Shown: positions 1,093-40,532 of the stretch, piece by piece
How positions within the stretch are numbered: the first letter of the stretch is position 1
Layout of the letters: each line of letters begins with the position of its first letter
Origin: Zetaproteobacteria bacterium CG_4_9_14_3_um_filter_54_145
GTDB taxonomy: Bacteria; Pseudomonadota; Zetaproteobacteria; Mariprofundales; Mariprofundaceae
Assembly (NCBI GenBank): GCA_002791575.1
Contig: PFXI01000079.1
Location: 1-64,000 of the forward strand
DNA: 64,000 nucleotides
Direction of reading: 5' to 3'
Program-made: the position numbers and the translations under genes
Notes under the pieces: model-generated
Seen by the model: the letters and a program-made list of their open reading frames with translations, nothing else
Told to the model about the DNA's origin: nothing
Database searches by the model: none

Positions 1093-1524
1093 ATGCGAGT
1101 CAATGAGCCGGTTACCAACAATGAGGTAACTTTCAGTGATGATGATTTGTTAATCTCCAAAACTGATACCAAAGGTATTATCACTTATTGCAATGAAGTA
1201 TTTATGCGTATTGCCGGTTTTGAAGAGCATGAGTTGCTCGGGAAAAACCACAATATGGTCAGGCATCCTGATATGCCACCGGAAGCATTTCAGGATTTAT
1301 GGGATACCGTGCGCGAAGGAAAGGAGTGGCACGGCCTTGTAAAAAACCGTTGTGCAAATGGTGATTACTACTGGGTAGATGCAACTGTCACCCCGGATGT
1401 GGATGCTGGAACAGGGCGTATTACCGGTTATATGTCAGCTCGGCGCAGAGCAACCAGCCAGCAAATTAATGATGCAACAGCATTGTATAAGCAGATGAAT
1501 GCCAAGCGCGGCGGACGGAGATAA
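1093..1524 (+). CDS. Stand-alone Aer-type PAS protein (CetB-like)
   Basis: PAS signature ITYCNEVFMRIAGFEEHELLGKNHNMVRHPDMPPEAFQDLW...GLVKNRCANGDYYWVDATVTP; no signalling domain; 3 nt before the next MCP ORF. Confidence 0.85.
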   Translation: MRVNEPVTNNEVTFSDDDLLISKTDTKGIITYCNEVFMRIAGFEEHELLGKNHNMVRHPDMPPEAFQDLWDTVREGKEWHGLVKNRCANGDYYWVDATVTPDVDAGTGRITGYMSARRRATSQQINDATALYKQMNAKRGGRR

Positions 1525-1527
1525 GAG

Positions 1528-2913
1528 ATGGCCAGAAAAGAGAAGAAGAAAATGGGTATGGTCGAGTCCTTGACGCGCAAAATGTCGGTAGAAAAGGTTA
1601 TGGCAACCGGTTTTTTGCTGGTCACGTTATGTGCATTCGCTATGGCTGCATTCACGCTTACGGTTTTAGCTACATGGGCATATTGGGCAGCCGCTATCGT
1701 TATAGCAGTAGTTGCGATGCTGTTTTATTCCGTGGCGGTAAAGGTGTTGGGGCGGAGGCTGCTTAAGATCCATGATGCGCTGGAAACCTGGTCTGGCGGG
1801 GATTTGTCGGCGCGTATTACCGATATTCAGGGTGGGGGTGATATAGGCAAGATCAGCTGGGAGGTGAATAACACAGGTGATCGTGTTGAAACCTTCCTGC
1901 GTGAAGTGCAGGCCTCTGTGGAAGGGATTGCTGGTGGTAATATGAACCGGCGCATTGATACACGCGGTCTTTACTCCGATATGACACGTGTTGGTGATGT
2001 CATCAATGAGAGTCTGGACCAGATGGCTACGTTTAAACGCAAGGCAATCCGGGACCAGCAGCGTACTGCTGTCTTTGAAACGATGATCAGCAGGATATCT
2101 GAAAGCCTTAACAGCCTCTCCAGTACGGCTGATGACACGGCTGATTCATTGGCTGCGATGGCTACGGAGGCGGCAGCTCAGGCAGGTAATGTGGTGACTG
2201 GTGCCCAGCAGGCTTCCGATAATGTAAGTACAGTGGCAGCGGCTACGGAGGAGTTGACGGCGTCAATCTCTGAAGTGACACGTCAGGTGATGGAGGCTGC
2301 CCGGGTAACAGAGCAGGCCGTGACTCAGGCCAATGAGACAACCGAAACGGTGGCGAAACTGGGCAAGGAGTCTCAGGAGATCGGTTCCGTTATCCAGGTG
2401 ATCAGCGATATTGCCGAGCAGACCAACCTGTTGGCGCTCAACGCCAGTATTGAGGCAGCCCGTGCAGGGGAAGCTGGACGCGGTTTTGCCGTGGTTGCGG
2501 ATGAGGTGAAAGAGCTTGCTTCTGAAACAGCACGTGCAACGGACCGTATTGCACGTCAGGTCAAGGAGATTCAGGCCGAAAGTGCCAATGCGGCCACCAC
2601 GATTGAAGCGATAAGCACTATTATCCGTCGCATCAATGAGATTAACAGCCATATCAGCATATCGGCAGACCAGCAGGCCCAGGCTGCGCAGGAGATCTCC
2701 TCGAGTATTCAGCATGCCAATCAGAGTGTGCTGGATGTTTCCAGCAATATGTCCGATGTGGCTGTGGCGGTAGAGGAGACAGGCAAGTCTGCCAATGGGC
2801 TCAGTGAAACATCCGAGAACCTGAAACGGTTGTCTGGTGAACTCTCATCAGTGGTGCACTCTTTCCTGAGTGATCTGGCTAGCAATGAGGATGTGAAAGA
2901 ATCGGTTGTATGA
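1528..2913 (+). CDS. Methyl-accepting chemotaxis protein with TM hairpin and HAMP, no periplasmic sensor (CetA-like)
   Basis: Two close TM segments, HAMP-like stretch, canonical MCP hairpin tip ([37 protein letters not shown]). Confidence 0.9.
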
Positions 2914-3012
2914 ACAGCCCCGTTGCCTTGTCGAATTGATAGACAGGCTGAGATCACCGTGGGTGGTCATGAGAAACCGGTCCAGAAGGCAGCGGTAAAG
3001 AGGAGCAGTGTC

Positions 3013-6000
3013 GTGAAGGAAGCAGCTTCAAGTCATCATTCCCGCAGGGAGTGGATGTATCTGGCCGAACGGGTGTTTTCACACCCGCGATACTCGCTGC
3101 TTATTGTCGCTGCACTGGCATTGTCTTCGTTTGAACGCCTCTGGTTTGTGATTGCCCCGCTGACTCTCTTTTTCTCTGTTGAGCTGGTGCTGCGTCTCTG
3201 GTTGCAAAAGGAGCAGGGATGGCGTGACCGCAATGAGATGATCTTCATTGTATTTGATGCGCTGGCAACGATAGGTCTTTATCTGATCCTGTTTGCGCCG
3301 GTCGGCCTGGTTGGTAACTCGATCTATCTGCGCATGGCTCGTCTGTTGCGCGGCATGTACATGCTCAGAATGATGAGGGTCTTTCATTTCGTTACCTATG
3401 AGAGCTTTATCTATTCATTGCCCATGGCGGTGATGGCCCTCGGGCTCTGTGCGGTTGCGCTTGGTATGGAGTCGATTGCACCGTATATGGCGATTGCACT
3501 GCTTGTAGAGCTAGCTGCCCGTCTGGTGGCGATAGGCAAGGTGCTGCCGGGTGGGAAAAGAAGAAAAGCAGAGTACTGCTTTATTGCCTTTGACCTTGTT
3601 ACCACGCTGGCATTATTCAATATGATTGAAGGCGTGCCAATGGCTGTCGCTTTGCTGCGAGCGGTTCGCGTTCTGGTGATGCTTAATCCGCTGGGCAGTC
3701 TGGTTCTGGCCGCCAGGCAGGTTGCGATGATGCCGGAAGTTAGAAAAGAGTCCGGGATGCTGGTGTCGATGCTGGTTATCCTGATGTTTTTCTCGGCATT
3801 AATGGTCTACTTTATATATCCGCATATGGATCTGTCTGGCGATGGCCTGATTAATAGTGATGACTATAACCCGTTACAGGTGGCAATGTTTGCATTTATC
3901 TGGTTGGTTGACCCAGGCACAACACCGGAGCAGGCATTTTCACCCGGTCTTAGTCTGCTGACTATTGGCATTGCCCTGACCGGCGTATTCTTCTTTGCCT
4001 TGCTGGTTGGTCTTGGTGCCAACGTTATGGGCGCGCTGCTACGCGAGCTTACCAATAGCCCGCTCTCTTCACGTGTGCAGTTGGTGTTTTCGGGGGATAA
4101 TGAGAAAGCCGAGGGTATACTCAAGGTGTTTGGCGAAATGTGCTCGCGTATGCGCCGGGCCTATTTTTCTGCCTGGATATTTTTTGATCATAAAGAGCGA
4201 GTTATCTCCGGTTTTGGCAGCTGGCTTAATATCAGACAGACGGATGAGGGGAGTAGGCAGGTACTTTCCCATTTTAACCTGAATGGCATCAAGGAGATAT
4301 TTTTCTTCCATAAAGGATACGCAGATCCGGAATCGATAGTGGATCATCATGCACTCGTTCAGGAAGCCCGGCTGAAGAAGATGGATATCGGTGTATCTCT
4401 GCTTTCTGAATCCGGAGTAAGCCGGAATCTGGAAAGTGTTTATCATCAGACTCTTGATGCTGAAGTGTTTAACTCGGCAGCCATTACGGCACGTATGCTC
4501 TACCAGATGCATCACTGTCCCTTTATGCCGGAATTGGGTAGTCAGATGCTTGATGCGGTTGAAGGTGACACGGGTCTGTTTACGGTTTCCTGGCAGGCGC
4601 GCATTGTTCCCGGTAACAGCGGTTCAAAACTGGTTGCGGGAAATACCGAAGCGCCACTCGTTGATTGGGCTACCAACCTGTTTGCATCCGGTGTGAATGC
4701 ATTGGCCTTCAGGAGCAAGGAGGGGGATTACCGCTTGCTCAGCGATATGGTGAAGATCAGCAGGCCCTTTGAGATCGAAGATGTGATAGCCATGGGCAGA
4801 GAAGCGAGTCTGTGGCCAGGTATGATGGAGCAGGCAGTCGACAAGGGTATCCCTCCTATACGCAACAAGGTGATCAGGATGTTCGAGTGGCCTGAAACGT
4901 GGGACTTGAATCTGCTGTTTATGGGCTGGCATGATGGCCTGCCATCAATGATCGAGGAGATGGCGGAGAAACATCATAAGCTGACCTTGAATGTGCTAAA
5001 TCCATCATCGGAAAAAATGGTCCGATATCATCAGATGCGTCTGGATGCAGTGGGCGAAAAGGTCAAAGCACTAAATTGCGATCTGAAGGTACAGATACAT
5101 CCGTGGGATGGCCTTGATATCTCAGAGGTCACACCGCTGCTGCGAAACTGCAAGGTGATCATGCTCTATCCGGTTGAGCGTGAGGACGACAGTGAGGATT
5201 CACTGCTTGAGATGTGGTATCACTCGCTGGCCCGGCTTCTTTCTGCCCGTAAACAGGAAGTGAAGTGGTGGACACCACCGAAAATCATGATTCTTCCCCG
5301 CAACAGGGTGAATAGTGAATCCTTTGTAAAATCTACGGAATCCTATCCGTTGTTGAAGATTGATATCGGCTCCCCAGATTCATTTCACGATGTCTATATG
5401 GCCAGAAAGATACTCTCCTTTGCCAATCGTAGCAGGGATAGCAAAGGCTTTGAGCAGGAGTCAAAAACCTTCGAGTTCATGGATATGATGCTTGGTGATG
5501 CTGTGCTGGTTGAAGGTGAAAACACCAATAGCCTGCTTGAGCAAAAAGATGCGACATGGGAAGAGGTTTACCGGGAAGGTTTACGTCGTGGTTGGGTTCC
5601 TGTGGCCTATGGTCTGGAGTCATCCAAAGCGACGCATTTGAACCTGTACCGGGTGATTGACCACCTCTTTCCTATCCAATGGAGTGTTGCCGGCGAGCAA
5701 CTACACCTGCTTGCTGGAACGCTGATTGATGAGTTTGAGATGCCCTCATCCTCCTCAGTAACGCTGTTTTGTCGCAGGGGCATTATCCTGAAAGAAGAGA
5801 AGGTCGTTACGACTGAGCCAGCAGCGGCTGAAGTCGCAGAGGTTCATGTAGCAGAAGCAGCGGTTCAGCCAGCAGCGACTGAAGTAGCAGAGACTGAAGT
5901 AGCAGAGACTGAGGTTGCAGAGGCTGAGGTTGCAGAGGCTGAGGTTGCAGAGACTGAGGTTGCAGAGACTGAGGTTGCAGAGACTGAGGTTGCAGAGACT

Positions 6001-6573
6001 GAGGTTGCAGAGACTGAGGTTGCAGAGACTGAGGTTGCAGTGGCTGAGGTTGCAGAAGCTGAGGTTGCAGAGGCTGAAGCAGCAGTGACTGAGGCAGTAG
6101 CAGAGGTTGAGGTCGCACAGTCTGAAGTAGCAGTAACTGAGCCCGTAGAGGCTCAGGAAACAGAAATGCAGGAAGAACAGAACAGCGGGCTGGCAACGAT
6201 AGCCCTGGAAGGAGAAGTGATGGCAGAAATATGGCCGAAAAGTGCAGATCCCAAGTTGTTGCGCGTGCTGATGCGTCAGCTCGAAGGTTCACTGCAGCTG
6301 TTAAACGAATCAACGGAAAACGGATTGATGAAGCTTTCCGAGGTGCTGGAGAAGAATGCCGGTACCGAAGTTGAAGAGGATATCATGCTGGCTCTGACCG
6401 AGTTGCAGAATATCGATCGCGTGATGCAACGTATGAATAATGTGAAAAGCTGTCTGGATGAGTGGTCGCAAGCAGTGAAAGAACAGGATACGAGCGAAGC
6501 AATGTGGAAAGAGAGTGTGTCTGGCCGCTATGTTATGGAAGAAGAGAGACTTGTATTGAGGGATGAGCTATGA
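3013..6573 (+). CDS. Large ion-channel-like membrane protein: tandem voltage-sensor-like domains, pore segment, degenerate CASTOR/POLLUX/RCK-like cytoplasmic region, acidic repeat and helical tail
   Basis: ORF track starts at a TTG (2923). GTG 3013 has an SD-like AGAGGAG 7 nt upstream. Two S1-S4-like blocks with Arg-spaced S4 (LRMARLLRGMYMLRMMRVF; LLRAVRVLVML), EF-hand-like DLSGDGLINSDD, pore-like WLVDPGTTPEQ, GW-type RCK start (LLFMGWHDGLPSMIEEM). Confidence 0.7.
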   Translation: MKEAASSHHSRREWMYLAERVFSHPRYSLLIVAALALSSFERLWFVIAPLTLFFSVELVLRLWLQKEQGWRDRNEMIFIVFDALATIGLYLILFAPVGLVGNSIYLRMARLLRGMYMLRMMRVFHFVTYESFIYSLPMAVMALGLCAVALGMESIAPYMAIALLVELAARLVAIGKVLPGGKRRKAEYCFIAFDLVTTLALFNMIEGVPMAVALLRAVRVLVMLNPLGSLVLAARQVAMMPEVRKESGMLVSMLVILMFFSALMVYFIYPHMDLSGDGLINSDDYNPLQVAMFAFIWLVDPGTTPEQAFSPGLSLLTIGIALTGVFFFALLVGLGANVMGALLRELTNSPLSSRVQLVFSGDNEKAEGILKVFGEMCSRMRRAYFSAWIFFDHKERVISGFGSWLNIRQTDEGSRQVLSHFNLNGIKEIFFFHKGYADPESIVDHHALVQEARLKKMDIGVSLLSESGVSRNLESVYHQTLDAEVFNSAAITARMLYQMHHCPFMPELGSQMLDAVEGDTGLFTVSWQARIVPGNSGSKLVAGNTEAPLVDWATNLFASGVNALAFRSKEGDYRLLSDMVKISRPFEIEDVIAMGREASLWPGMMEQAVDKGIPPIRNKVIRMFEWPETWDLNLLFMGWHDGLPSMIEEMAEKHHKLTLNVLNPSSEKMVRYHQMRLDAVGEKVKALNCDLKVQIHPWDGLDISEVTPLLRNCKVIMLYPVEREDDSEDSLLEMWYHSLARLLSARKQEVKWWTPPKIMILPRNRVNSESFVKSTESYPLLKIDIGSPDSFHDVYMARKILSFANRSRDSKGFEQESKTFEFMDMMLGDAVLVEGENTNSLLEQKDATWEEVYREGLRRGWVPVAYGLESSKATHLNLYRVIDHLFPIQWSVAGEQLHLLAGTLIDEFEMPSSSSVTLFCRRGIILKEEKVVTTEPAAAEVAEVHVAEAAVQPAATEVAETEVAETEVAEAEVAEAEVAETEVAETEVAETEVAETEVAETEVAETEVAVAEVAEAEVAEAEAAVTEAVAEVEVAQSEVAVTEPVEAQETEMQEEQNSGLATIALEGEVMAEIWPKSADPKLLRVLMRQLEGSLQLLNESTENGLMKLSEVLEKNAGTEVEEDIMLALTELQNIDRVMQRMNNVKSCLDEWSQAVKEQDTSEAMWKESVSGRYVMEEERLVLRDEL
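5872..6120 (+). repeat. 15-bp coding minisatellite encoding (T/A)EVAE pentapeptides
   Basis: actgaggttgcagag / gctgaggttgcagag tandem units, most homogeneous around 5900-6050. Confidence 0.9.
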
Positions 6574-6941
6574 GTGGTGCACCTAAAATTCTCATTGTTG
6601 ACGATTCAATGATGGTTCGCATGACCGTAAAGCGAACGCTGCTCAGCGTGGATTTCGAAGTGGTTGAGGCTAAAGATGGCGCTGAAGGGCTGGCCAAAGC
6701 TCAGGAGTCAGTCTATGACCTGATTTTGACGGATCTGAATATGCCCAATATGGATGGCTTGACGATGATTCAAAATATTCGTCAGCTACCTGCTTATGCG
6801 GAGATACCGATTGTGATGCTGACAACAGAGTCAGGCGACGATAAGAAATCCATAGGTCATGAGTCAGGAGTGTCGGCCTGGCTTGTGAAGCCATTTCAGC
6901 CGGATCATCTGATTGAAGTTGTCGGCAGTATGTTGTTTTGA
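6570..6941 (+). CDS. cheY: CheY-family single-domain response regulator
   Basis: ILIVDDSMMVR...DLILTDLNMPNMDG...VKPF; ATGA overlap with the upstream channel gene. Confidence 0.9.
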   Translation: MSGAPKILIVDDSMMVRMTVKRTLLSVDFEVVEAKDGAEGLAKAQESVYDLILTDLNMPNMDGLTMIQNIRQLPAYAEIPIVMLTTESGDDKKSIGHESGVSAWLVKPFQPDHLIEVVGSMLF

Positions 6942-6969
6942 TGAAAGATATCCGGATTGGGGTGTGATT

Positions 6970-9810
6970 ATGGATGAAGAACTACTTGCCGAATTTCTAA
7001 CCGAGAGTAACGAGAACCTTGCCTCGATTGAAGAGCAGCTATTGGATCTTGAAGCAGACCCCGGTAATGCCGACACCGTGGATTCCATATTCCGTGTGAT
7101 CCATACGGTCAAAGGCAGCTGCGGCTTTCTTGGTCTCAAAGGGTTGGAGAAGGTGGCGCATGCAGGTGAAAACCTGCTTGGTAAAGTTCGCTCAACAAAG
7201 TTCAAGGCTGACGGTGATATTATATCACTGCTGCTGGAGAGCACCGATATGATCAAGGAGCTCATTGCCGGGATTGAAGAGAGTGGAAGCGAGCCTGTCA
7301 TTGATTCGGCTGATCTATGCATCAGGTTGGCTGCAGCTGAGCGTTTGATTGAAGGTGGCGGTGCTTCAGTGGCCAGTGAGATCACTGACGTGGTGTCTAT
7401 GGACTGGCTTGAAGGCATTGAAGAGCAAGATATAGAGATTCTGCAGCAGGCAGGCCTTTGTACACAGGCTTTGGTGCTGGCGGCCGGGTTTGAAAAACTG
7501 CGGGCTATTGAGGGGATTAAGCCGGCAGTGGCGCTGAAGGTGCTGGGGATTGCCAAGGCAAGCTCAATGGCATCAACTAAAGCAGTACCGATAGAACAGC
7601 CGCTGCCCGCCGAGGTTCAGACGCAGGCGGTAGTGGTTGCGGATGCAGTTGAAGAGCAGAAAGAGCCAGAGCAGAAAGAGTCATTGCCCGTGGTTGCAGC
7701 GGTGAATACCCAGGTTCAGCCCACGCGCAAGCCCAAGGCTGAAGGTAGTATCAGGGTTGATGTCGCTCTGCTTGATGAACTGATGAATCAGGTTGGTGAG
7801 CTGGTACTCTCCCGTAACAGGCTACTGCGTCTGGTTGAGCAGAGCACTGATACCGAATTGGTACGTACCAGCCGTGGTGTCAGTCAGATTACAAGTCGTT
7901 TGCAGGAGAAGCTACTGCATACCCGCATGCAGCCTATTTCAACATTGTGGAGTACTGTCCCTCGTTTGTTGCGGGACATTACCAAGAATCTGGGTAAAAA
8001 AATCCGGGTTGAAATGGAGGGGCAGGAGACCGAGCTGGATAGAACTATTCTGGCTGCCCTGAAAGATCCGATGACACATATTATCCGCAACTCTTGTGAT
8101 CATGGTATTGAGTCACCAGAGGTTCGTCGGGCCAAAGGTAAGCCGGAAGAGGGGAAAATATCCCTCGAGGCGCGCCAGGAGAGTGGCTTTATTGTCATCG
8201 ATATTAATGATAATGGTGGCGGCATAGACCCGAAAAAAATTCGCGACAAAGCACTGAAGATGGGCGTGATCACAGCTGAGCAGGCGACTACGATGAGTGA
8301 CAAGGCTGCACTGCAGCTGATCTTTCACGCCGGTCTCTCTACAGTGGAGAAGATCAGCAACCTCTCCGGCCGTGGTGTCGGAATGGATGTGGTTCGCTCC
8401 GAGATTGAGGGTGTTGGCGGCACTGTAGAAATCGACAGTGAACTAGGTGCGGGAACCACGTTACACATTCGCATACCACTTACACTTGCCATTATCCCGG
8501 CCATGATTGTTGCCAGCTCAGGCCAGCATTTTGCTATTCCGCAGATGGTCGTGCAGGAGCTGATCTCTATCAGTCGTAATAATGGCGACTGGGAAGATAT
8601 TGCCGGCAAACCATTTTACCGCCTGCGCGGTCGACTGTTGCCGATTATTGGTCTCAGTGAGGTGCTGAAGCAGGAAGCAAGCCAGAAAGAGATGAGTTCT
8701 TTTGTTGTCATTAATATAGCTGATCGTCAGTTCGGTATCGGTGTGGATCATATTCTGGGCGCGGAAGAGATCGTAGTTAAGCCATTGGGGTGCCATTTTA
8801 ATAACCTCGATGTGTATGGCGGCTGTAGCATCCTTGGCGATGGCATGGTTGTGCCTATCCTGGATTGCATGGGGATTACCAAGGATCTTCGCCAGGGACA
8901 GGAAGTTGCATCGGTTGTTGCTGAGCATGAAGCAGATCGGCTTTCTATTGCAGAGGAGAGCCAGTATATCCTTGTGTTTGCAGTGGGTGAGCAGTGGTAC
9001 GCTATTCCCATGGCTCTGGTTGAGCGTATTGAGGAGATTGATACGCAGGCGATTGAAAAATCGGGTCGCAGAGAGGTTGTTCAGTATCGGGGTGACGTTG
9101 TTCAGGTGGTGCGTCTCTCCGAGGTGCTGGAGATCGTGGCGGCCGAGAAGGGTGATAGTGAACCCTGTCTGATCATTGCTGATCAGGGGCGAAGGCTTTG
9201 CATACAGGTCGACAGAATCATCGATATCGTCAAGCAGAAACTGGAGATCCATCTGGAGAGCAGTGAGCCATATTTCCTGGGGACGGCAGTGATAGAAGAT
9301 CGCTCAACTGAAGTGATTGATATTTTCGAGGTGATTAAAAAGTCTGCTCCGAACTGGTTTGCCAAGAAGGGTGGCGATCGTCGTTCGCGCGTACAGAGGA
9401 TCGTTTATGTAGAAGATGCTCTCTTTTTCAGAAATCTGGTGCTGCCTGTGCTTGAAGGGCTTGGTTGTGAAATCCTTATGGCCAGAGATGGTATAGAAGC
9501 GCAGGAGATTCTTAAGCATCAGCAACCGGATCTGATTTTAACCGATATAGAAATGCCGCGTCTGGATGGATTTGCACTTGCAACATGGATCCGTGAACAG
9601 CCGAACCTGGAGAAAACACCGATCATTTCTCTGTCATCGCTGGACCCGTCCGAATTCGCTGGTCAGGCGCATCTGTTTAATGCCTGTGTGAAGAAGTTCG
9701 ACCGGGAGATACTGATCGAGCACCTTACACAGCTCCTGGGTAGGAAGAGGCCAGAGAAGCAAAATAGCTTGACCAGTGCCAGTGTGATAGATGGTCAACT
9801 GGTAGATTAG
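6970..9810 (+). CDS. cheA: Chemotaxis histidine kinase CheA, hybrid with tandem CheW-like domains and C-terminal receiver
   Basis: Start MDEELLAEFLTES at 6970; Hpt (IFRVIHTVKGSCGFLG), HATPase (IIRNSCDHGIESPEVR, GRGVGMDVV), two CheW-like regions, REC (RIVYVEDALFF...LILTDIEMPRLDG). Confidence 0.93.
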   Translation: MDEELLAEFLTESNENLASIEEQLLDLEADPGNADTVDSIFRVIHTVKGSCGFLGLKGLEKVAHAGENLLGKVRSTKFKADGDIISLLLESTDMIKELIAGIEESGSEPVIDSADLCIRLAAAERLIEGGGASVASEITDVVSMDWLEGIEEQDIEILQQAGLCTQALVLAAGFEKLRAIEGIKPAVALKVLGIAKASSMASTKAVPIEQPLPAEVQTQAVVVADAVEEQKEPEQKESLPVVAAVNTQVQPTRKPKAEGSIRVDVALLDELMNQVGELVLSRNRLLRLVEQSTDTELVRTSRGVSQITSRLQEKLLHTRMQPISTLWSTVPRLLRDITKNLGKKIRVEMEGQETELDRTILAALKDPMTHIIRNSCDHGIESPEVRRAKGKPEEGKISLEARQESGFIVIDINDNGGGIDPKKIRDKALKMGVITAEQATTMSDKAALQLIFHAGLSTVEKISNLSGRGVGMDVVRSEIEGVGGTVEIDSELGAGTTLHIRIPLTLAIIPAMIVASSGQHFAIPQMVVQELISISRNNGDWEDIAGKPFYRLRGRLLPIIGLSEVLKQEASQKEMSSFVVINIADRQFGIGVDHILGAEEIVVKPLGCHFNNLDVYGGCSILGDGMVVPILDCMGITKDLRQGQEVASVVAEHEADRLSIAEESQYILVFAVGEQWYAIPMALVERIEEIDTQAIEKSGRREVVQYRGDVVQVVRLSEVLEIVAAEKGDSEPCLIIADQGRRLCIQVDRIIDIVKQKLEIHLESSEPYFLGTAVIEDRSTEVIDIFEVIKKSAPNWFAKKGGDRRSRVQRIVYVEDALFFRNLVLPVLEGLGCEILMARDGIEAQEILKHQQPDLILTDIEMPRLDGFALATWIREQPNLEKTPIISLSSLDPSEFAGQAHLFNACVKKFDREILIEHLTQLLGRKRPEKQNSLTSASVIDGQLVD

Positions 9811-9820
9811 GGGGCGTAAT

Positions 9821-10270
9821 ATGAATGGTGAACCGATAACGCAATCACGTTTGCTGACATGTATAGTGGCCGGGCAGTGGCTTGCACTGCCTGTGGATCA
9901 GCTGTCGGAAGTAGTGGTGCCACAGGTGCGTACCAAGGTTCCGCTATCGACAGCTTCGGTAAACGGCCTGATTAATCTGCGTGGCAAGATCCTTACTGAA
10001 CTGGATATGCTAAGGATTCTGGATCTGCCAGCCAGGGAAGATGAAAGCCGGTATCGTACCATCATTGTTGAGAGTGATGAGGGTGAAAACTTCGGGCTGA
10101 CAGTGGATAGTGTAGGCGAGGTGATAGATATACAGGCCGGTGCTTATGAGCCAACTCCGGATACGCTGGATGCAAGGTGGAAAAGCGTGTGTCACGGTGT
10201 TCTTAAGCAGGACAAACGTATACTGGTTATGCTGGATGTTGAGAAAGTTATAGCGATGAGTATGCCGTGA
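9821..10270 (+). CDS. cheW: Chemotaxis coupling protein CheW
   Basis: CheW fold signature VAGQWLALPVDQLSEVV...GLINLRGKILTELDM. Confidence 0.9.
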   Translation: MNGEPITQSRLLTCIVAGQWLALPVDQLSEVVVPQVRTKVPLSTASVNGLINLRGKILTELDMLRILDLPAREDESRYRTIIVESDEGENFGLTVDSVGEVIDIQAGAYEPTPDTLDARWKSVCHGVLKQDKRILVMLDVEKVIAMSMP

Positions 10271-10683
10271 CTGGTTTGAATGCGGCTATGGAGGCGTGTA
10301 TGTTGGGCGAAGTACTTGTTATTGATGATGCAAAGGTCGTGCGTACCTCTCTGGGGCGAATCATGCGCAGGTGTGGTTACGCTCTGCTCGAGGCAGAAAA
10401 TGGTGAGCTTGGTTTGCAGCTGTTGGCCTTGCATCCGGAGGTGCGGGTAGTTTTTCTGGATATCAATATGCCAGTAATGGATGGCATGACCTTTCTTGAG
10501 CAAATTAAATCCCGCTTTGCCGACAGAGAGTTGCCGCCTGTGATTATTGTTTCGACAGAAACTGAAATGAAATCCATCCTCAAGGCGCTGGCACTGGGTG
10601 CCAGTGAATATGTCATGAAACCATTTGATGAGAGTATTATCAAAAGCAAGCTTGATATCGTAGGGATTGGATACAATACATGA
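10267..10683 (+). CDS. CheY-like response regulator; true start may be downstream (10291 or 10300)
   Basis: VLVIDDAKVVR...VVFLDINMPVMDG...VMKPFDE receiver domain. Confidence 0.88.
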   Translation: MTGLNAAMEACMLGEVLVIDDAKVVRTSLGRIMRRCGYALLEAENGELGLQLLALHPEVRVVFLDINMPVMDGMTFLEQIKSRFADRELPPVIIVSTETEMKSILKALALGASEYVMKPFDESIIKSKLDIVGIGYNT

Positions 10684-11741
10684 TCAGAGTGCTGGTCGTC
10701 GATGATTCCGGTGTCTATCGCATGCTTCTGAGCAAGGCTTTGAAAGAGTACCAGGATATCGAAGTTGTCGGGGCCGCTGTAGACGGGCAGGAGGCTGTGG
10801 AGTTGATTCCCAAGCTTAAGCCCGACGTAATCACGCTGGACATGAATATGCCGCGTATGAACGGTATGGAGACGCTGGCTGTGCTGGCAGTGAAGTATCC
10901 GGATATACAGGTGATCGTTGTAGCCGCTGAAACAAGAAACGATGCCGAGCGAGTTGTGCTGGTGTTAGAGGCAGGGGCCTTTGATATGGTGCTTAAGCCG
11001 AAAGCAACTGATGCGACGCCGATGCAGACTTTGCGGGAAGGCTTATACCCGAAACTGAAAGCCGCAGCGGAACGAAAGAGTGGCCTGAAACAGCAAAGAA
11101 CAGTGCCGCCGCGACCGGCAACGGTTGCAACGCCCGGCAGGGTGAGGGGAGTGTTTACCCCGGATATTGTAGCTATCGGCTCGAGTACCGGTGGGCCCGC
11201 CGCACTACGCGAGGTGATTGCGGCACTTCCTGCCAATTTCCCAGTACCGGTCATTGTGGTCCAGCATATGCCCAAGCTGTTTATTGAATCACTTGCCAGC
11301 AGGCTGGATCGGGATTGTCCTGTTCGTTGCCTTGTTGCACAGGAGCAGATGAAGCTGGAAGCCGGACATGTCTATTTTAACCCCGGTGAGATTCATATGG
11401 ATGTGGTCAGGGCAGCTGGCGGCGGGCTAACTGTTCGCTTTAATGATGGAGCGCCAGAGCACCACTGTAAACCTGCAGTTGATGTGGCACTTCGATCCCT
11501 GCACCGCCTGGCGCCGACAATACGTACGCTGGTTGTGATACTAACCGGTATGGGAGCCGATGGTGCTGCCGGCGCCAAGATGCTCTCTGATGTTCATGCA
11601 CGAGTCATTGCGCAGGATCAACAGAGCAGTGTGGTTTGGGGAATGCCCGGCCAGACCGTGAAGCTGGGGGCGGCAGATGAGGTGTTGCCACTTGCAGAGA
11701 TTGGTCCTGCCATTGCCTGCATTGGCAGAGGTATGGCCTGA
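10680..11741 (+). CDS. cheB: Chemotaxis protein-glutamate methylesterase CheB
   Basis: REC plus CheB methylesterase (GSSTGGPAALREV, VVQHMP, LTGMGADGAAG). Confidence 0.95.
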   Translation: MIRVLVVDDSGVYRMLLSKALKEYQDIEVVGAAVDGQEAVELIPKLKPDVITLDMNMPRMNGMETLAVLAVKYPDIQVIVVAAETRNDAERVVLVLEAGAFDMVLKPKATDATPMQTLREGLYPKLKAAAERKSGLKQQRTVPPRPATVATPGRVRGVFTPDIVAIGSSTGGPAALREVIAALPANFPVPVIVVQHMPKLFIESLASRLDRDCPVRCLVAQEQMKLEAGHVYFNPGEIHMDVVRAAGGGLTVRFNDGAPEHHCKPAVDVALRSLHRLAPTIRTLVVILTGMGADGAAGAKMLSDVHARVIAQDQQSSVVWGMPGQTVKLGAADEVLPLAEIGPAIACIGRGMA

Positions 11742-12583
11742 TGCCTGTCACTAGCGCCCATTTCATCTACCTTTCGGATTTTTTGAGGAAAGAGAGCGGC
11801 ATTTCATTGAATGAAAGCAAACTCTATCTGATTCGTACACGATTGCTGCCGTTGGTAAAAGACCACGGCTTTGAAAGCCTGAATACCTTGATTGATGCAA
11901 TCAAGAGAAACGAACGGGGAGAGCTGGCGCGGTTGGTTATTGATAAAATGACGACCAATGAAACCCTGTTCTTTCGTGATGCATATCCGTTTGAGGTACT
12001 GAAAAAACACCTGTTTCCAAAGCTGCTGCAGCAAAAACAGTCGTTCGCGAAAATAAAGATCTGGTCTGCTGCGTCGTCTACCGGGCAGGAAGCTACCTCA
12101 ATTGCGATTAGCGCCATGAACCAGATTCCGAACGCTGCGAACCGGGTTAAAATTATTGGCACAGACCTTTCTCCTGAGGCAATTCGATATGCCAAGGCCG
12201 CAACGTATAAGCAGATGGAAGTGCAGCGTGGGTTGCCGATTCAGGATCTGGTTAAATACTTTAAGCAGGTTGATGAACATGCATGGCAGGTCAATGATGC
12301 GTTAAGATCAATGATTCATTTTCAGGAGGCAAACCTGATTGCGCCAACACTGATTGGAACCCTGCGGCACTATTCGCCATTTGATATTGTTTTTTGCCGC
12401 AATGTGCTGATCTATTTTGATGTTGAACAGCGCAAAGAGGTGATTGACCAGATTGCCCAGTTGACAGATATAGGTGGTTATCTATTTACCGGTGCGGGCG
12501 AAATGGTTGAAGGAAAAAAATCAAAATGGGAAACGGTTCGTCTTGAAAACAGGCCAGTCTGGCGACTGGTCTCACGTAATTGA
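11741..12583 (+). CDS. cheR: Chemotaxis protein methyltransferase CheR
   Basis: [42 protein letters not shown]. Confidence 0.95.
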
Positions 12584-35187: not shown

Positions 35188-37329
35188 CTAAATATGAATG
35201 CTCAGACCACTGTCGTTTCGGGACGCAGTCTGGCGGATGGTTTCTGTGAGTGTGTTGCTGGTCATTTCATTGTCTGATTGCTGTGTTCCTGATGCGGAGT
35301 GACGACCACCGGAGCCGGATGCAGCCTGCTCACCATGAGACCCCATGGAGAAGCCGGAGAGATCCAGTCCCTGCTGAGCCAGCGCATGCCTGAGTGCAGG
35401 GAGTTGCTGATCTATCGCTGCTCTCGTGCTCGATTGATCCACCATCATGTGTACCTGTAGCTGGTTGTTTGCATCGGTTTGCAATGAGATGCGAATTTTC
35501 CCCAGGTTTGCGGGATCCAGCTGAATTTCCAGGCGGGTCTGTCCGTTTTTAGCGGATTGGGCAATGTGCTGGATGGAGTCAAACATGGTCATGGTAGGCG
35601 TGGGCGCGTGACTCAGGTATTGCTTGAAATTGCTGCCCGTAACGGATGCAGATTTGCTATCTGTTGTAATAACCTGAAACCCGTGCGCATCCTGACTTCC
35701 CTTGCCACTCGACTGCTGCCCGGCATCTTCCTGAGCTGCTTCCTGGGAGAGAGGCGGTACGACCGTAGTTGTAACATTGTTCTGGCTAACCGTTGATGGG
35801 CCATTCACTTGTGCAGCAAGGTTAGGGACAGCGAATGGTGATGTCCGCTCTGCTGCGGCACGCTGTTTTGCCTCGTTATGCTGCTGTATAGTTTTGTTGA
35901 TGCCTTTTTCCGCAGCGCGAACCCGCTCTGCATTCTTCTCTGTGAGGGCGTTGTGGACGGCTGCTGGCATCTCCTTGATCTGCTCGGGAGCCAACGATTG
36001 TTGTGCTGATACAGGTGGGGTGACCTGAGCAGCTTGCGTGGTTCTGCCAGCTGCAGGTGATGCTATTTCTGCTTTGGTGCCTCCTACAGACTTCTCCTGT
36101 ATGGCGGTATCTGTTTTGTTTGCCAGTGGCTTTGCTGTTGAGGGTTGATTCTGCTTGGCCATCAGCGGCTCAGTCGTTGCCGAAGGGGATTTTACGTTAT
36201 TGTCAGATGGCTGAAACGCCGCTGCCCGTTTGTTGGTAGTGGTCTGAACCGGCTCCGGCTTGGCAGGAGTGGCCTGAACCAGTTCCGGCTTGGCGGTAGT
36301 GGCCTGGACCTGTTCCTGCTTGGCGGTAGTGGCCTGAACCAGCTCCGGCTTGGCGGCAGTGGCCTGAACCAGTTCCGGCTTGGTAGTAGCAGCGGCCTGA
36401 ACCACCAGCTCCGGCTTGGCGGTAGTGGCCTGAACCAGTTCCGGCTTGGTAGTAGCAGCGGCCTGAACCACCAGCTCCGGCTTGGCGGTAGTGGCCTGGA
36501 CCTGTTCCGGCCTGGTAGTAGCGGCCTGCACCAGCTCCGGCTTGGCGGTAGTGGCCTGGACCTGTTCCGGCCTGGTAGTAGCGGCCTGGACCAGCTCCGG
36601 CCTGGTAGCAGCTGCCTGAACCAGCTCCGGTTTGGCGGCAGCAGTCTGAACCAGCTCCGGTTTGGCGGTAGTGGCCTGCACCTGCTCCTGCCTGGTAGCA
36701 GCGGCCTGAACCAGCTCCGGCTTGGCGGTAGTGGCTTGCACCGGTTCCGGCTTGGTAACAGCGGCCTGAACCAGCTCAGGCTTGGTAGCAACACTCTGGA
36801 CATGTTCCGACTTTGCTGAAGCAAGGCCTCCCTTGGCAGAGCCGGGTTGTGAAATGCTCTTTTTACCGGTACCAGGCTGGGCTTGAGCTTCTTTACCTGT
36901 GCTGCTTTTTTCCTGACTGGATGTTTTCTCACCAGCGACAAATTTGAATCCAGCCGGTTTTAATTTTGTGTTGGGTTGCTGGGCCAATATTTGCAGAGCG
37001 ACGGCCTGAACCGTTGAACCATCCGTTGCAGTGATGATAGATTTTGCTGTCTCTTTTGTGTTTGTTACCTCTTTGCCAGCGCCTGACAACAATACCTTCT
37101 GTATGCCTGCTGTCTGCTGCTTGAGCAGGGTAGGGCGTTGTAAGTCAGTAAGGTTTTGTGCTTTGCCCTGTGTGAGCGGGGATGTTTTTTCATCTGCTTT
37201 GCCATGCTTGCCGAGCATGGCCATCAGTTTGGCAAACAAGCCGTTTGTTGCCTGCTTGCCAGGTTTGCCGCTGTTCTCTGCGATGCCGGATGAGCCGGGT
37301 CCCGTTATTTGTTCTATCATGCCAAACAC
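35188..37329 (-). CDS. fliK: Flagellar hook-length control protein FliK with expanded central repeat region
   Basis: C-terminal LEIQLDPANLGKIRISLQTDANNQLQVHMMVDQSSTRAAIDQQLPALRHALAQQGLDLSGFSM; lies before flgD-flgE. Confidence 0.92.
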   Translation of the reverse strand: MFGMIEQITGPGSSGIAENSGKPGKQATNGLFAKLMAMLGKHGKADEKTSPLTQGKAQNLTDLQRPTLLKQQTAGIQKVLLSGAGKEVTNTKETAKSIITATDGSTVQAVALQILAQQPNTKLKPAGFKFVAGEKTSSQEKSSTGKEAQAQPGTGKKSISQPGSAKGGLASAKSEHVQSVATKPELVQAAVTKPEPVQATTAKPELVQAAATRQEQVQATTAKPELVQTAAAKPELVQAAATRPELVQAATTRPEQVQATTAKPELVQAATTRPEQVQATTAKPELVVQAAATTKPELVQATTAKPELVVQAAATTKPELVQATAAKPELVQATTAKQEQVQATTAKPELVQATPAKPEPVQTTTNKRAAAFQPSDNNVKSPSATTEPLMAKQNQPSTAKPLANKTDTAIQEKSVGGTKAEIASPAAGRTTQAAQVTPPVSAQQSLAPEQIKEMPAAVHNALTEKNAERVRAAEKGINKTIQQHNEAKQRAAAERTSPFAVPNLAAQVNGPSTVSQNNVTTTVVPPLSQEAAQEDAGQQSSGKGSQDAHGFQVITTDSKSASVTGSNFKQYLSHAPTPTMTMFDSIQHIAQSAKNGQTRLEIQLDPANLGKIRISLQTDANNQLQVHMMVDQSSTRAAIDQQLPALRHALAQQGLDLSGFSMGSHGEQAASGSGGRHSASGTQQSDNEMTSNTLTETIRQTASRNDSGLSIHI
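36230..36800 (-). repeat. Coding minisatellite in fliK, about 30-bp units encoding KPELVQATTA variants
   Basis: Roughly 18 units of (T/A)(K/R)(P/Q)E(L/P/Q)VQA(T/A)(T/A), with two inserted VVQAAATT variants. Confidence 0.9.
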
Positions 37330-37688: not shown

Positions 37689-40532
37689 TCAGTTCTGGCC
37701 GATAACAATCAGCTCGACAATTTCCTGACGATATTTTGTCCATGAGTGGCGGGATACCGGATTACCGAAGGGATTGATAATAATCTGATATTGCCTGAGG
37801 CAGGAGAAGTCTTCCTCACGTGGAAACAGTATGCGAATGGTGTTTTGTACCGGGTCTGTCCAGATGAAGTTTTGCTTCAAACGGTAGCCGATCCACACAT
37901 AGCCCTGTTGCAGCAGGCTGGCAAAGAGAATCTCCGCATTTTCCGGTAGCTCCTGATTGACTTCGAGCGCAATCAGATCCATTTCATCGGTATCTCCGAC
38001 ATCGCCCATGATGTCATCGATGGTATGGCGTAGTGTACGCTGTAGTTCGTAGGACCCTTCACTTTCAGATGCATACATATGGAAACTGGTGTGGGCCAGA
38101 TAGGTACCGTAAAATTCATCGGGTACAGTGACATGAATCTCCATCGGGAAATCAAAGCGTTCCAGCTCCTGCTGCAGCAGACGTGCCTGCTCCCTGCTTT
38201 CCATAACAGGGAAAATGTCCGGGTGTCCATCCTGCTCTTTAATGATGGTGACCAGATGTGACAATACGGTTGCAATACTGGCATAGGCTTGCACTGTCAT
38301 ATGCTGTGGGCGGGAAAGCAGGATGCGATCAATACCCGTCACATATGGGCGGAGAAAGTTCATATCCGAGAAATTCCAGCTGATAATTTCAACGCGAATA
38401 CGCTCATTTGCGCCCGGTGTTTCATCACAACGGCGACGCAGATAGGCCAGCTGGCTTGCCACTTCATCCGCGGTGAGGTCGTCAATCAGGGTCATCTTGA
38501 TTTGATCGTATTCAGCCAGCAGCCGTTGCAGCAACAGAGGCAGGCTGCCCACCCAGCCGGTCACCAGCAAATTCAAGGTCTTGCCGTGACTGGCCGGTGA
38601 AAGGCCAGCAATACCGGGCAGCATTGCCGGCAGGCTCAATTGATGCAGATGTTTGATGGTGTAAAAGATCTCTGCATTCAGCGCATTGGCATTGATGGCA
38701 ACGCCAAGCATGGAAGGGATATCCATTGGTAATGAAACTCGATCGAGCTTATACAGGGGGTGGGACTGGCCATTGTTGTCGACCAGTGCCAGCAATGTGA
38801 CGCCGCGCAAGAGCAGGAATGAAGCCAGTGCGGAGATTTCCATTGAACTGCTCTGATCGGGCAGGGCAAGGTGTATCGCGCCATCAACGCGCTCCAGTCG
38901 GCCTCCCCATTCAGCCACTTGCAGAGAGGACTCTTCCGTACGTTCAGGGATCATCAGTCGCTCCATGACCTGATCAAAGTCACGGTAAACCAGGATGTTA
39001 CGGAACAGATTTGCGCGCACATCAGCCTGTGAATTGACTACGGTAGGCTTGTTGTAAAAACCCTGTGTATCCCAGCCGATTTGCAACATATGGTGATGTG
39101 AACTCAGGTGCGGTTCGGCAAGGCCGGGGGTGGCAAAGTTCAGGTAGATATTCGGATTTACCTTGCGGATCGCAATCAGGGAGAAGGTCGCAATGGCCAG
39201 GTTGTCAGCATCACTATGACCTTCCGGGATGGAGACAATGGCCTGCCTTGCATGCGCCAGATTCACGCGTTGCAGGGATGTGACCTCCTCTACTTTTCCC
39301 CAGCGGTAGGAAACCCATGAATGTTCAATCAACTCATCCGGCATTTTTTCGGCGTCGTTCAGGATCACCAGTTTGAGTTTGGAGAAGCCCCGCTCGGAGA
39401 TAACTTTTAACTGTGACAATATAAATGGAGAGACCGAAGACCAGCCCAGCATCACCATATGATTGGTGATGTTCAGCCGTTCATTGCGCAGCTTGGCCAT
39501 AAGCCCGGATACAATGCTGGCACCGATGCCGATAAAGAAGGCGAAAATGAAGACGCCGATGATAACGGCCACAACGGAGAAGATGGCGATTTCGGAATTA
39601 TCGGGGTAGGTGATGGTGTTGCCCGGATCCGTGAACATACGAAAGGCAAACCAGATTGGCGCCAGCATACCCTTGTCTTCCTGGTTGCTGAGGCCATTCT
39701 GATCGTAATCAAAATTTGCCATGCTGAAGTGACCGATGACGCCGCCGCCGATGGATAGCACCGCCAGCAGCAGTATAATAAGGTTGATCTCCTGCATGAA
39801 CTGACCTTCACGCATGATATCTTTCAGGTTGCGTATTATCACCATCCACGGGCGGAGCAGTCGGATAAGGCGCAGCATACGCAGCGCGCCGCCGTATGGC
39901 ACAAAGGCGAAGGCCGGAACCATGACAATGGTTGCGATCAGGTCCACGCCCCAGTATAGCCACTCTGCAACCTTGTCGCGTCGGGTTTCATATTTGATAT
40001 TACGCATAATCAAAAAGCGGATTGCCAGCTCCACACTGAAGAAGATGATAATGATCCACATCAGGGTGTCTTCGGCAAAAAAGGAGAGCAGGATAATCAG
40101 TGAAATGAGCATGCCATATGTGGGCGAATACATGGCACTCTGCAAATCGATGTAGCGGAACATGCGCAGTGTGCGCAGCAGATAAACGGCGCGCAACAGA
40201 CGTGCCGCGGCCAGATTCTCCGCATCAAGCGGAATATTTAGAATGGTAATCAACAGTGATGCAATACCGATGACATCCAGGACCAGAAACAACGCATCGA
40301 TTTTTTGATTCAGGGATGATCGATAGGGGTTGGTACGTTGCTTGTTCATCATGATGGCAAAACGCATACCCACTTCAATACAGAACACGGCAAAGAGGAC
40401 GGTAGCCAGTATGCGGTTATGCGTGAACGACAGCGCGATCAGCCCCATCATCAGGAAACCGAAGCGGGGGTGCATCAGTACCCATTCCATATGATGATAT
40501 AACAGGGGACGGTCACTGAATACAGTTTTCAT
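37689..40532 (-). CDS. Ion-channel-like protein, CASTOR/POLLUX-like: tandem voltage-sensor-like domains, EF-hand-like turret, pore and two RCK-like domains
   Basis: Two S1-S4-like blocks with S4 LLRAVYLLRTLRMFRYI and LRMLRLIRLLRPWMVI; DYDQNGLSNQED then FRMFTDPGNTITY pore; HMVMLGWSSVSPFILSQLKVI and LNLLVTGWVGSLPLLLQRLL RCK starts. Confidence 0.75.
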   Translation of the reverse strand: MKTVFSDRPLLYHHMEWVLMHPRFGFLMMGLIALSFTHNRILATVLFAVFCIEVGMRFAIMMNKQRTNPYRSSLNQKIDALFLVLDVIGIASLLITILNIPLDAENLAAARLLRAVYLLRTLRMFRYIDLQSAMYSPTYGMLISLIILLSFFAEDTLMWIIIIFFSVELAIRFLIMRNIKYETRRDKVAEWLYWGVDLIATIVMVPAFAFVPYGGALRMLRLIRLLRPWMVIIRNLKDIMREGQFMQEINLIILLLAVLSIGGGVIGHFSMANFDYDQNGLSNQEDKGMLAPIWFAFRMFTDPGNTITYPDNSEIAIFSVVAVIIGVFIFAFFIGIGASIVSGLMAKLRNERLNITNHMVMLGWSSVSPFILSQLKVISERGFSKLKLVILNDAEKMPDELIEHSWVSYRWGKVEEVTSLQRVNLAHARQAIVSIPEGHSDADNLAIATFSLIAIRKVNPNIYLNFATPGLAEPHLSSHHHMLQIGWDTQGFYNKPTVVNSQADVRANLFRNILVYRDFDQVMERLMIPERTEESSLQVAEWGGRLERVDGAIHLALPDQSSSMEISALASFLLLRGVTLLALVDNNGQSHPLYKLDRVSLPMDIPSMLGVAINANALNAEIFYTIKHLHQLSLPAMLPGIAGLSPASHGKTLNLLVTGWVGSLPLLLQRLLAEYDQIKMTLIDDLTADEVASQLAYLRRRCDETPGANERIRVEIISWNFSDMNFLRPYVTGIDRILLSRPQHMTVQAYASIATVLSHLVTIIKEQDGHPDIFPVMESREQARLLQQELERFDFPMEIHVTVPDEFYGTYLAHTSFHMYASESEGSYELQRTLRHTIDDIMGDVGDTDEMDLIALEVNQELPENAEILFASLLQQGYVWIGYRLKQNFIWTDPVQNTIRILFPREEDFSCLRQYQIIINPFGNPVSRHSWTKYRQEIVELIVIGQN

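Follow-up and report, generated by a model that had tools for sequence, protein, structure and literature searches.

Why would a gene resembling an ion channel stand in the middle of a bacterial chemotaxis operon? The question is raised by a 64,000 nt stretch (the window, meaning the whole stretch of DNA analysed) of contig PFXI01000079.1 from Zetaproteobacteria bacterium CG_4_9_14_3_um_filter_54_145 (GCA_002791575.1; 2.85 Mb in 124 contigs, 99% complete). Here an open reading frame (ORF) at 3013-6573, between a gene for a methyl-accepting chemotaxis protein (MCP) and cheY, codes for a protein with two voltage-sensor-like domains (VSD1 and VSD2), a pore module and tandem RCK-like domains. We are not aware of any bacterial chemotaxis pathway with an ion channel as a fixed and physically fused component, nor of any tandem VSD-VSD-pore channel, and neither was found in the open-access literature searched. 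The analysis describes a conserved, predicted channel of VSD-VSD-pore-RCK-RCK order within the che operon, to which a helical domain associated with chemotaxis (C-terminal domain, CTD) is fused. Whether it is an ion- or voltage-responsive channel built into the chemotaxis pathway, with a CTD that binds phosphorylated CheY (CheY~P) and probably dephosphorylates it, we regard as about evenly balanced.

Predicted fold of the channel and its place in the che operon

The ORF starts with GTG at 3013, behind a gaggag ribosome site at 3000, and its stop codon at 6571-6573 overlaps the start of cheY at 6570, an overlap (ATGA) that had been proposed from the sequence. An AlphaFold2 model (38-row alignment; predicted local distance difference test score, pLDDT, 80.9; predicted template modelling score, pTM, 0.75) contains two four-helix units (VSD1: 25–40, 44–67, 73–94, 104–120; VSD2: 136–151, 153–177, 182–202, 210–238), of which VSD1 is the lower-confidence part (block pLDDT about 55–77). 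They are followed by S5 (241–267), a pore helix (287–299), S6 (311–347) and two Rossmann-type domains. Across the 37 che-type rows of the alignment, the S2-like ExxxR pairs (E57/R61 and E166/R170) and the S3 acids (D82 and D194) are near- or fully invariant, the S4 of VSD1 keeps R107, R110, R113 and R122 in 37/37 rows and R119 in 34, and R216 and R219 in the S4 of VSD2 are invariant or nearly so. These charges are unlikely to be due to chance, because they are conserved in the che-type rows and most of them are also present in a paralogue of only about 19–22% identity. The two units match each other in hhalign (probability 96.8%, E 3e-10; control pairs 0.1–0.2%), and by this comparison of sequences they are homologous and represent an internal duplication. 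The two four-helix units with S2, S3 and S4 signatures named in the original prediction, its VSD-VSD-pore-RCK order and the membrane topology with a pore helix are thus all borne out by the predicted fold. With a charged four-helix sensor and an S5-pore helix-S6 module both present in the model, the protein would belong to the voltage-gated-like superfamily, and may conduct ions and sense voltage.

No Pfam family scored above threshold for the channel (Ion_trans reached 9.6 bits against a gathering cut-off of 25; the window paralogue scores 37.5 bits), Castor_Poll_mid gave no match at E 1, and PDB sequence searches with the channel, the paralogue and alignments A3 and A4 returned no significant match, Kv/KCNQ voltage sensors appearing at E about 2. 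Structural comparison with Foldseek placed the gating rings of MtDMI1 and LjCASTOR at ranks 1–5 (E 1.7e-14 to 7.5e-14), followed by Slo1, Slo2.2, GsuK and MthK (all E < 0.001) and KCNQ2 chains (E about 0.01, probability 0.99–1.00), in line with the kinship to CASTOR/POLLUX suggested earlier.

Conservation is strong in the pore helix, filter region, S6 and gating ring, and a D-P-G filter is kept in every alignment row. Between S5 and the pore helix, a periplasmic turret loop (residues 273–285) fits the EF-hand pattern PS00018, strictly in 22/38 and loosely in 33/38 alignment rows, and may serve in Ca2+ sensing, judging by its pattern. The loop is not a family-wide feature, because the flagellar-type paralogues contain no strict match (0/21; loose, 6). 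This loop, the 15-bp-repeat linker, the DRVxQ domain described below and the paralogue in the same window had all been overlooked in the original prediction.

The host group is the iron-oxidising Zetaproteobacteria. The channel was sought in 84,980 species genomes with a 29-sequence alignment and patterns specific for the che type, so that the result bounds that type and not the wider family. Of the 41 loci obtained, two belong to unclassified proteobacterial metagenome-assembled genomes (MAGs), and the others carry the labels Mariprofundus, Ghiorsea, Mariprofundaceae, Mariprofundales or Zetaproteobacteria. When run on 399 genomes of the phylum, the profile of the channel matched 55 of the same class and gave three weak matches elsewhere that cover the pore and RCK1 only. 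One of these three (L197) is a bacterial relative with two transmembrane (TM) helices, an LTDPG filter region, Castor_Poll_mid and Slo-like RCK domains.

Gene order is strongly conserved. Wherever an orthologous locus includes upstream sequence, an MCP gene lies directly 5' of the channel, and in several relatives the encoded receptor has PAS and/or HAMP domains; cheY is the next chemotaxis gene 3' in 29/29 loci that reach beyond the channel stop, most of them with the four-base ATGA overlap; and cheA, cheW, cheB and cheR follow as far as contigs extend. The slot between receptor and cheY, from which a role in taxis had been postulated, is a conserved one, and homologues were found in both che and fli contexts. 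Co-occurrence also supports the tie to taxis: of 78 genomes compared within the class, 41 have both channel and CheA, 3 the channel alone, 7 CheA alone and 27 neither (Fisher p 2e-11, although shared ancestry inflates such p-values). A contig end interrupts the che cluster in G024 and G064, two of the seven genomes with CheA alone. A broken second channel copy with a frame break lies behind an MCP gene at L095 10001-11596, and an unbroken copy (L073) is present in the same MAG.

The source genome carries two distant paralogues of the channel, one on contig C115 and the other at 37689-40532 (-) of the window, where it has a TDPGN filter, lacks a CTD and sits in the flagellar fliG-fliK operon. 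In the window, as in many relatives, the flagellar-type paralogue is flanked by a MotE-like gene and fliK, and across the class such paralogues track FliG more than CheA (paralogue and FliG both present in 42 of the same 78 genomes, paralogue alone in 5, FliG alone in 9, neither in 22). FliG and the paralogue occur without CheA or a che-type channel in genomes such as G001, G003, G019, G061 and G085, and both types of channel are missing from the 19 genomes that lack CheA and FliG. A third type, with AAGN replacing DPGN at the filter (L003 883-3702 (-), L147 7251-10124, L141 10291-13167), did not adjoin fli genes in the loci seen.

The C-terminal domain and chemoreceptor tails

The CTD, of about 120 residues, follows a repetitive linker at the end of the channel and is its most direct physical link to chemotaxis. 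The D and Q of its D-R-V-x-Q motif are invariant in a 36-copy alignment, and some orthologues carry two or three copies of the domain in the same frame. At L082, three CTDs are encoded in a single 1715-aa frame (1799-7370) and a fourth is a separate 121-aa ORF before cheY. In its AlphaFold2 model (pLDDT 79) the CTD consists of a helical hairpin and two short helices. No family was found for it in Pfam or NCBIfam; an NCBIfam match to ribonuclease E was rejected, as it falls on the low-complexity linker.

The CTD profile (A4) matched two MCP-like proteins from outside the class, L195 and L196, at E 9e-6 and 1.6e-4 before their inclusion, and both are encoded directly 5' of cheY and cheA. With a widened profile, ten further loci (L231-L240) showed this arrangement of an MCP tail before cheY-cheA. 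Standalone domains also occur within the Zetaproteobacteria: L194 lies between an MCP gene and cheA in G057, which has no channel, and L245 between cheA and cheY in another genome. These two and the 121-aa ORF of L082 were kept as contig-internal; most other standalone CTD genes (G010, G024, G014, G007 and others) are at or very near contig ends and were discounted, because assemblies break in the repeat.

The CTD bears the signature of the McpA/CttP-type tail (LQ..DRV.Q...V and Y.M..ER), and on sequence grounds we consider it related to this conserved chemoreceptor tail encoded beside cheY. The naming of L195, L196 and L231-L240 as McpA-like follows gene order and tail, not a tree or the P. 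aeruginosa sequence. The published McpA tail is highly conserved with an unclear role, and early-stage F7 clusters lack cheZ (PMC7184735). The tails of these twelve proteins have FQDRVSQ-type D/Q residues and often a DITFF end, and are candidates for a CheY-side module in the absence of cheZ. Five standalone proteins of 190–231 aa (L226-L230) show the pattern FQFYD[KR]L[ST]QRL...Y[ST][LM]..ER...DDIELF and are possible stand-alone CheZ-like proteins; no recognised che neighbour lies within the 9 kb read.

Possible modes of action

In the proposed mechanism, the protein would form a tetrameric cation channel in the inner membrane, of the 6TM-RCK class and extended at its N-terminus by an additional voltage-sensor-like domain, and CTD copies on a flexible acidic linker would bind CheY, most likely speeding CheY~P dephosphorylation via a CheZ-type D-xxx-Q pair. 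The state of the channel would depend on membrane voltage acting through the VSDs, on periplasmic Ca2+ acting through the EF-hand-type loop and/or on a cytoplasmic ligand bound by the gating ring. This state would alter the flow of ions and/or how readily the CTD reaches CheY~P, the signal presumably running from channel to CTD, with the energy or ion status of the cell thereby written onto the swimming signal. The arrangement points to a membrane-electrical or ion signal with a direct effect on swimming behaviour. We consider possible, but less likely than not, the stronger form of this proposal, that a voltage- or ion-gated channel directly controls a fused CheZ-type CheY~P phosphatase, bypassing receptor and kinase, and that the same domain, as the McpA/CttP-like tail, would be the missing signal-termination module of F7 systems.

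The case for phosphatase activity comes in part from comparison with CheZ. With a hidden Markov model (HMM) of the widened family, CheZ proteins rank 1–10 among 3,191 non-family ORFs and make up 14 of the top 20 (hypergeometric p 8e-26, a value that overstates independence because the CheZ members are mutually related). Reversed decoys gave a best E no lower than 0.2, and the catalytic FQDxxxQ of CheZ aligns under the invariant D/Q of the CTD in most alignments inspected. Other results weigh against this reading. For L105 the best alignment spans a different helix from the motif, a direct hhalign comparison of CTD and CheZ was negative (0.7%), and the CTD model had no significant match among PDB structures. 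The zetaproteobacterial CTDs lack the C-terminal CheY-binding peptide of CheZ and end in EEERxVLRxEL (relatives outside the class end in DITFF or DIELF). Membership of the CheZ family is not claimed for the CTD, because the CheZ signal disappeared once 12 motif columns were masked; given this and the negative hhalign and structure searches, the D/Q match could be due to convergence. The S4 of VSD2, with two arginines only, and a D-P-G filter that differs from the K+ signature count similarly against the sensing and conducting parts of the proposal.

A possible alternative, if a rather doubtful one, is that the CTD merely docks to CheY or to the CheA array without phosphatase activity, and that the state of CheY~P or of the array gates the channel and shifts membrane potential or Ca2+. 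The kinship of the CTD with chemoreceptor tails would fit, as would a linker with one to three CTD copies, suited to tethering, and the RCK rings of known channels are gated from the cytoplasm (PMC6697748). The helix register that the invariant D/Q shares with the catalytic pair of CheZ suggests more than docking, as does the lack of a recognisable CheY phosphatase elsewhere in the genome: CheX and CheC were not found in profile searches, and CheZ (PF04344) gave no match, although a strongly diverged CheZ would escape such profiles. PF04344 is nearly absent from the class as sampled, its single match (G061) falling below the family cut-off, and in G008 and G011, two complete genomes with CheA and FliG and without the channel, a strong CheX lies at a distance of about 8.5 kb from CheA. 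Replacement of a phosphatase by the CTD is, however, not exclusive, because some channel-bearing genomes have CheX- or CheC-like matches.

The pore itself could be vestigial, since D-P-G is no K+ signature, and the protein would then be a non-conducting sensor in which voltage or ion sensing is coupled to the CTD, with a logic like that of voltage-sensing phosphatases. The fully conserved S4 charges of VSD1, the unusual filter and the directly fused output domain agree with this, but the strong conservation of pore helix, D-P-G, S6 and gating ring is hard to explain without conduction, and we consider it unlikely. Relatives without a CTD in the flagellar operon, and some elsewhere, would suit a housekeeping channel that provides ion homeostasis for marine or flagellar life, with the operon slot serving co-expression only and the CTD unrelated to CheY. 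This seems very unlikely, as the CTD occupies the same slot without the channel, occurs in chemoreceptor tails beside cheY, and the channel co-occurs strongly with CheA.

If the proposal of a CheY-directed, ion- or voltage-responsive channel holds, membrane potential or Ca2+ would be linked to CheY signalling within one polypeptide, the plant symbiosis channels would have a bacterial relative with voltage sensors, and the question of the conserved McpA tail (PMC7184735) would become directly testable with a single purified domain.

Feature map and relation to known systems

The features are collected in Table 1. The fliK gene next to the window paralogue (35188-37329, -) contains a long in-frame KPELVQAATT-like repeat at 36145-36819, which produces long spurious ORFs on both strands.

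Table 1. Positions of the channel, its predicted domains and the surrounding genes in the window
Feature	Position	Strand	Evidence
PAS-domain protein, CetB/Aer-PAS-like, 5' of MCP	1093..1524	+	Pfam PAS_3 6.9e-17
MCP, CetA-like: hydrophobic N-terminus, HAMP-like region, MCP signalling domain	1528..2913	+	Pfam MCPsignal 4.9e-34
Channel protein, 1186 codons, GTG start, ATGA stop/start overlap with cheY	3013..6573	+	orthologues
Voltage-sensor-like domain 1, residues 25-126	3085..3390	+	AlphaFold2 helices; conserved ExxxR / D / RxxRxxR
Voltage-sensor-like domain 2, residues 131-240	3403..3732	+	AlphaFold2; hhalign homology to domain 1
S5 helix, residues 241-267	3733..3813	+	AlphaFold2
EF-hand-type loop DLSGDGLINSDDY, residues 273-285, periplasmic turret	3829..3867	+	PROSITE PS00018 pattern
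Pore helix and filter region, invariant D300-P301-G302	3871..3921	+	AlphaFold2, alignment
S6 helix, residues 311-347	3943..4053	+	AlphaFold2
Tandem RCK-like gating-ring domains, residues about 355-925	4075..5787	+	AlphaFold2; Foldseek
15-bp tandem repeat encoding (EVAET)n acidic linker	5872..6141	+	Tandem Repeats Finder
C-terminal helical domain (CTD) of channel	6205..6570	+	36-copy alignment; AlphaFold2
CTD D1135-R-V-M-Q1139 (D codon 6415-6417, Q codon 6427-6429); also RYVMEEER	within 6205..6570	+	
cheY, start at 6570	6570..6941	+	Response_reg 4.3e-27
cheA: Hpt, dimerisation, ATPase, CheW, receiver	6970..9810	+	Pfam
cheW	9821..10270	+	Pfam
Second cheY-like receiver	10267..10683	+	Pfam
cheB	10680..11741	+	named by translation; cheB reference for synteny search
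cheR	11741..12583	+	named by translation; cheR reference for synteny search
Paralogous channel, 947 aa, without CTD, flagellar operon	37689..40532	-	Pfam Ion_trans 1.9e-9; synteny

NaVBP and other prokaryotic Nav channels of alkaliphilic Bacillus are, like the present protein, bacterial channels of voltage-gated type tied to motility in the literature, and have a role in taxis, but they are 6TM proteins without RCK domains, and we know of none that is encoded in a che operon or carries a CheY-side domain. Slo1 (BK) and Slo2.2 share the VSD-pore-RCK-RCK order, and GsuK and MthK the pore-RCK part, with the significant Foldseek matches given above; these channels differ in having one VSD or none, a K+ filter and no CheY-side domain. 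The plant nuclear Ca2+ channels DMI1, CASTOR and POLLUX likewise have a pore followed by an RCK1-RCK2 double gating ring, and their filter region is of D-[A/P]-G type. Four TM segments are predicted for CASTOR/POLLUX-type proteins (PMC6697748), whereas the channel described here has ten TM-type helices and a pore helix in the model, including two voltage-sensor-like domains, adds a CTD, stands in a bacterial chemotaxis operon and misses Castor_Poll_mid.

On the CheY side, CheZ is the top-ranked other family and resembles the CTD in having D-xxx-Q in a helix and an FQD context, but the CTD misses PF04344 and is fused to a channel. CheZ forms a long helical hairpin and a four-helix-bundle dimer; the CTD model has a hairpin with two short helices. 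The McpA/CttP-like receptors of F7 systems share the LQFQDRVSQ...YTM..ER tail and the order receptor-cheY-cheA; in these the tail domain is carried by the MCP, while in the window it is carried by an ion channel and the MCP is encoded by the adjoining gene.

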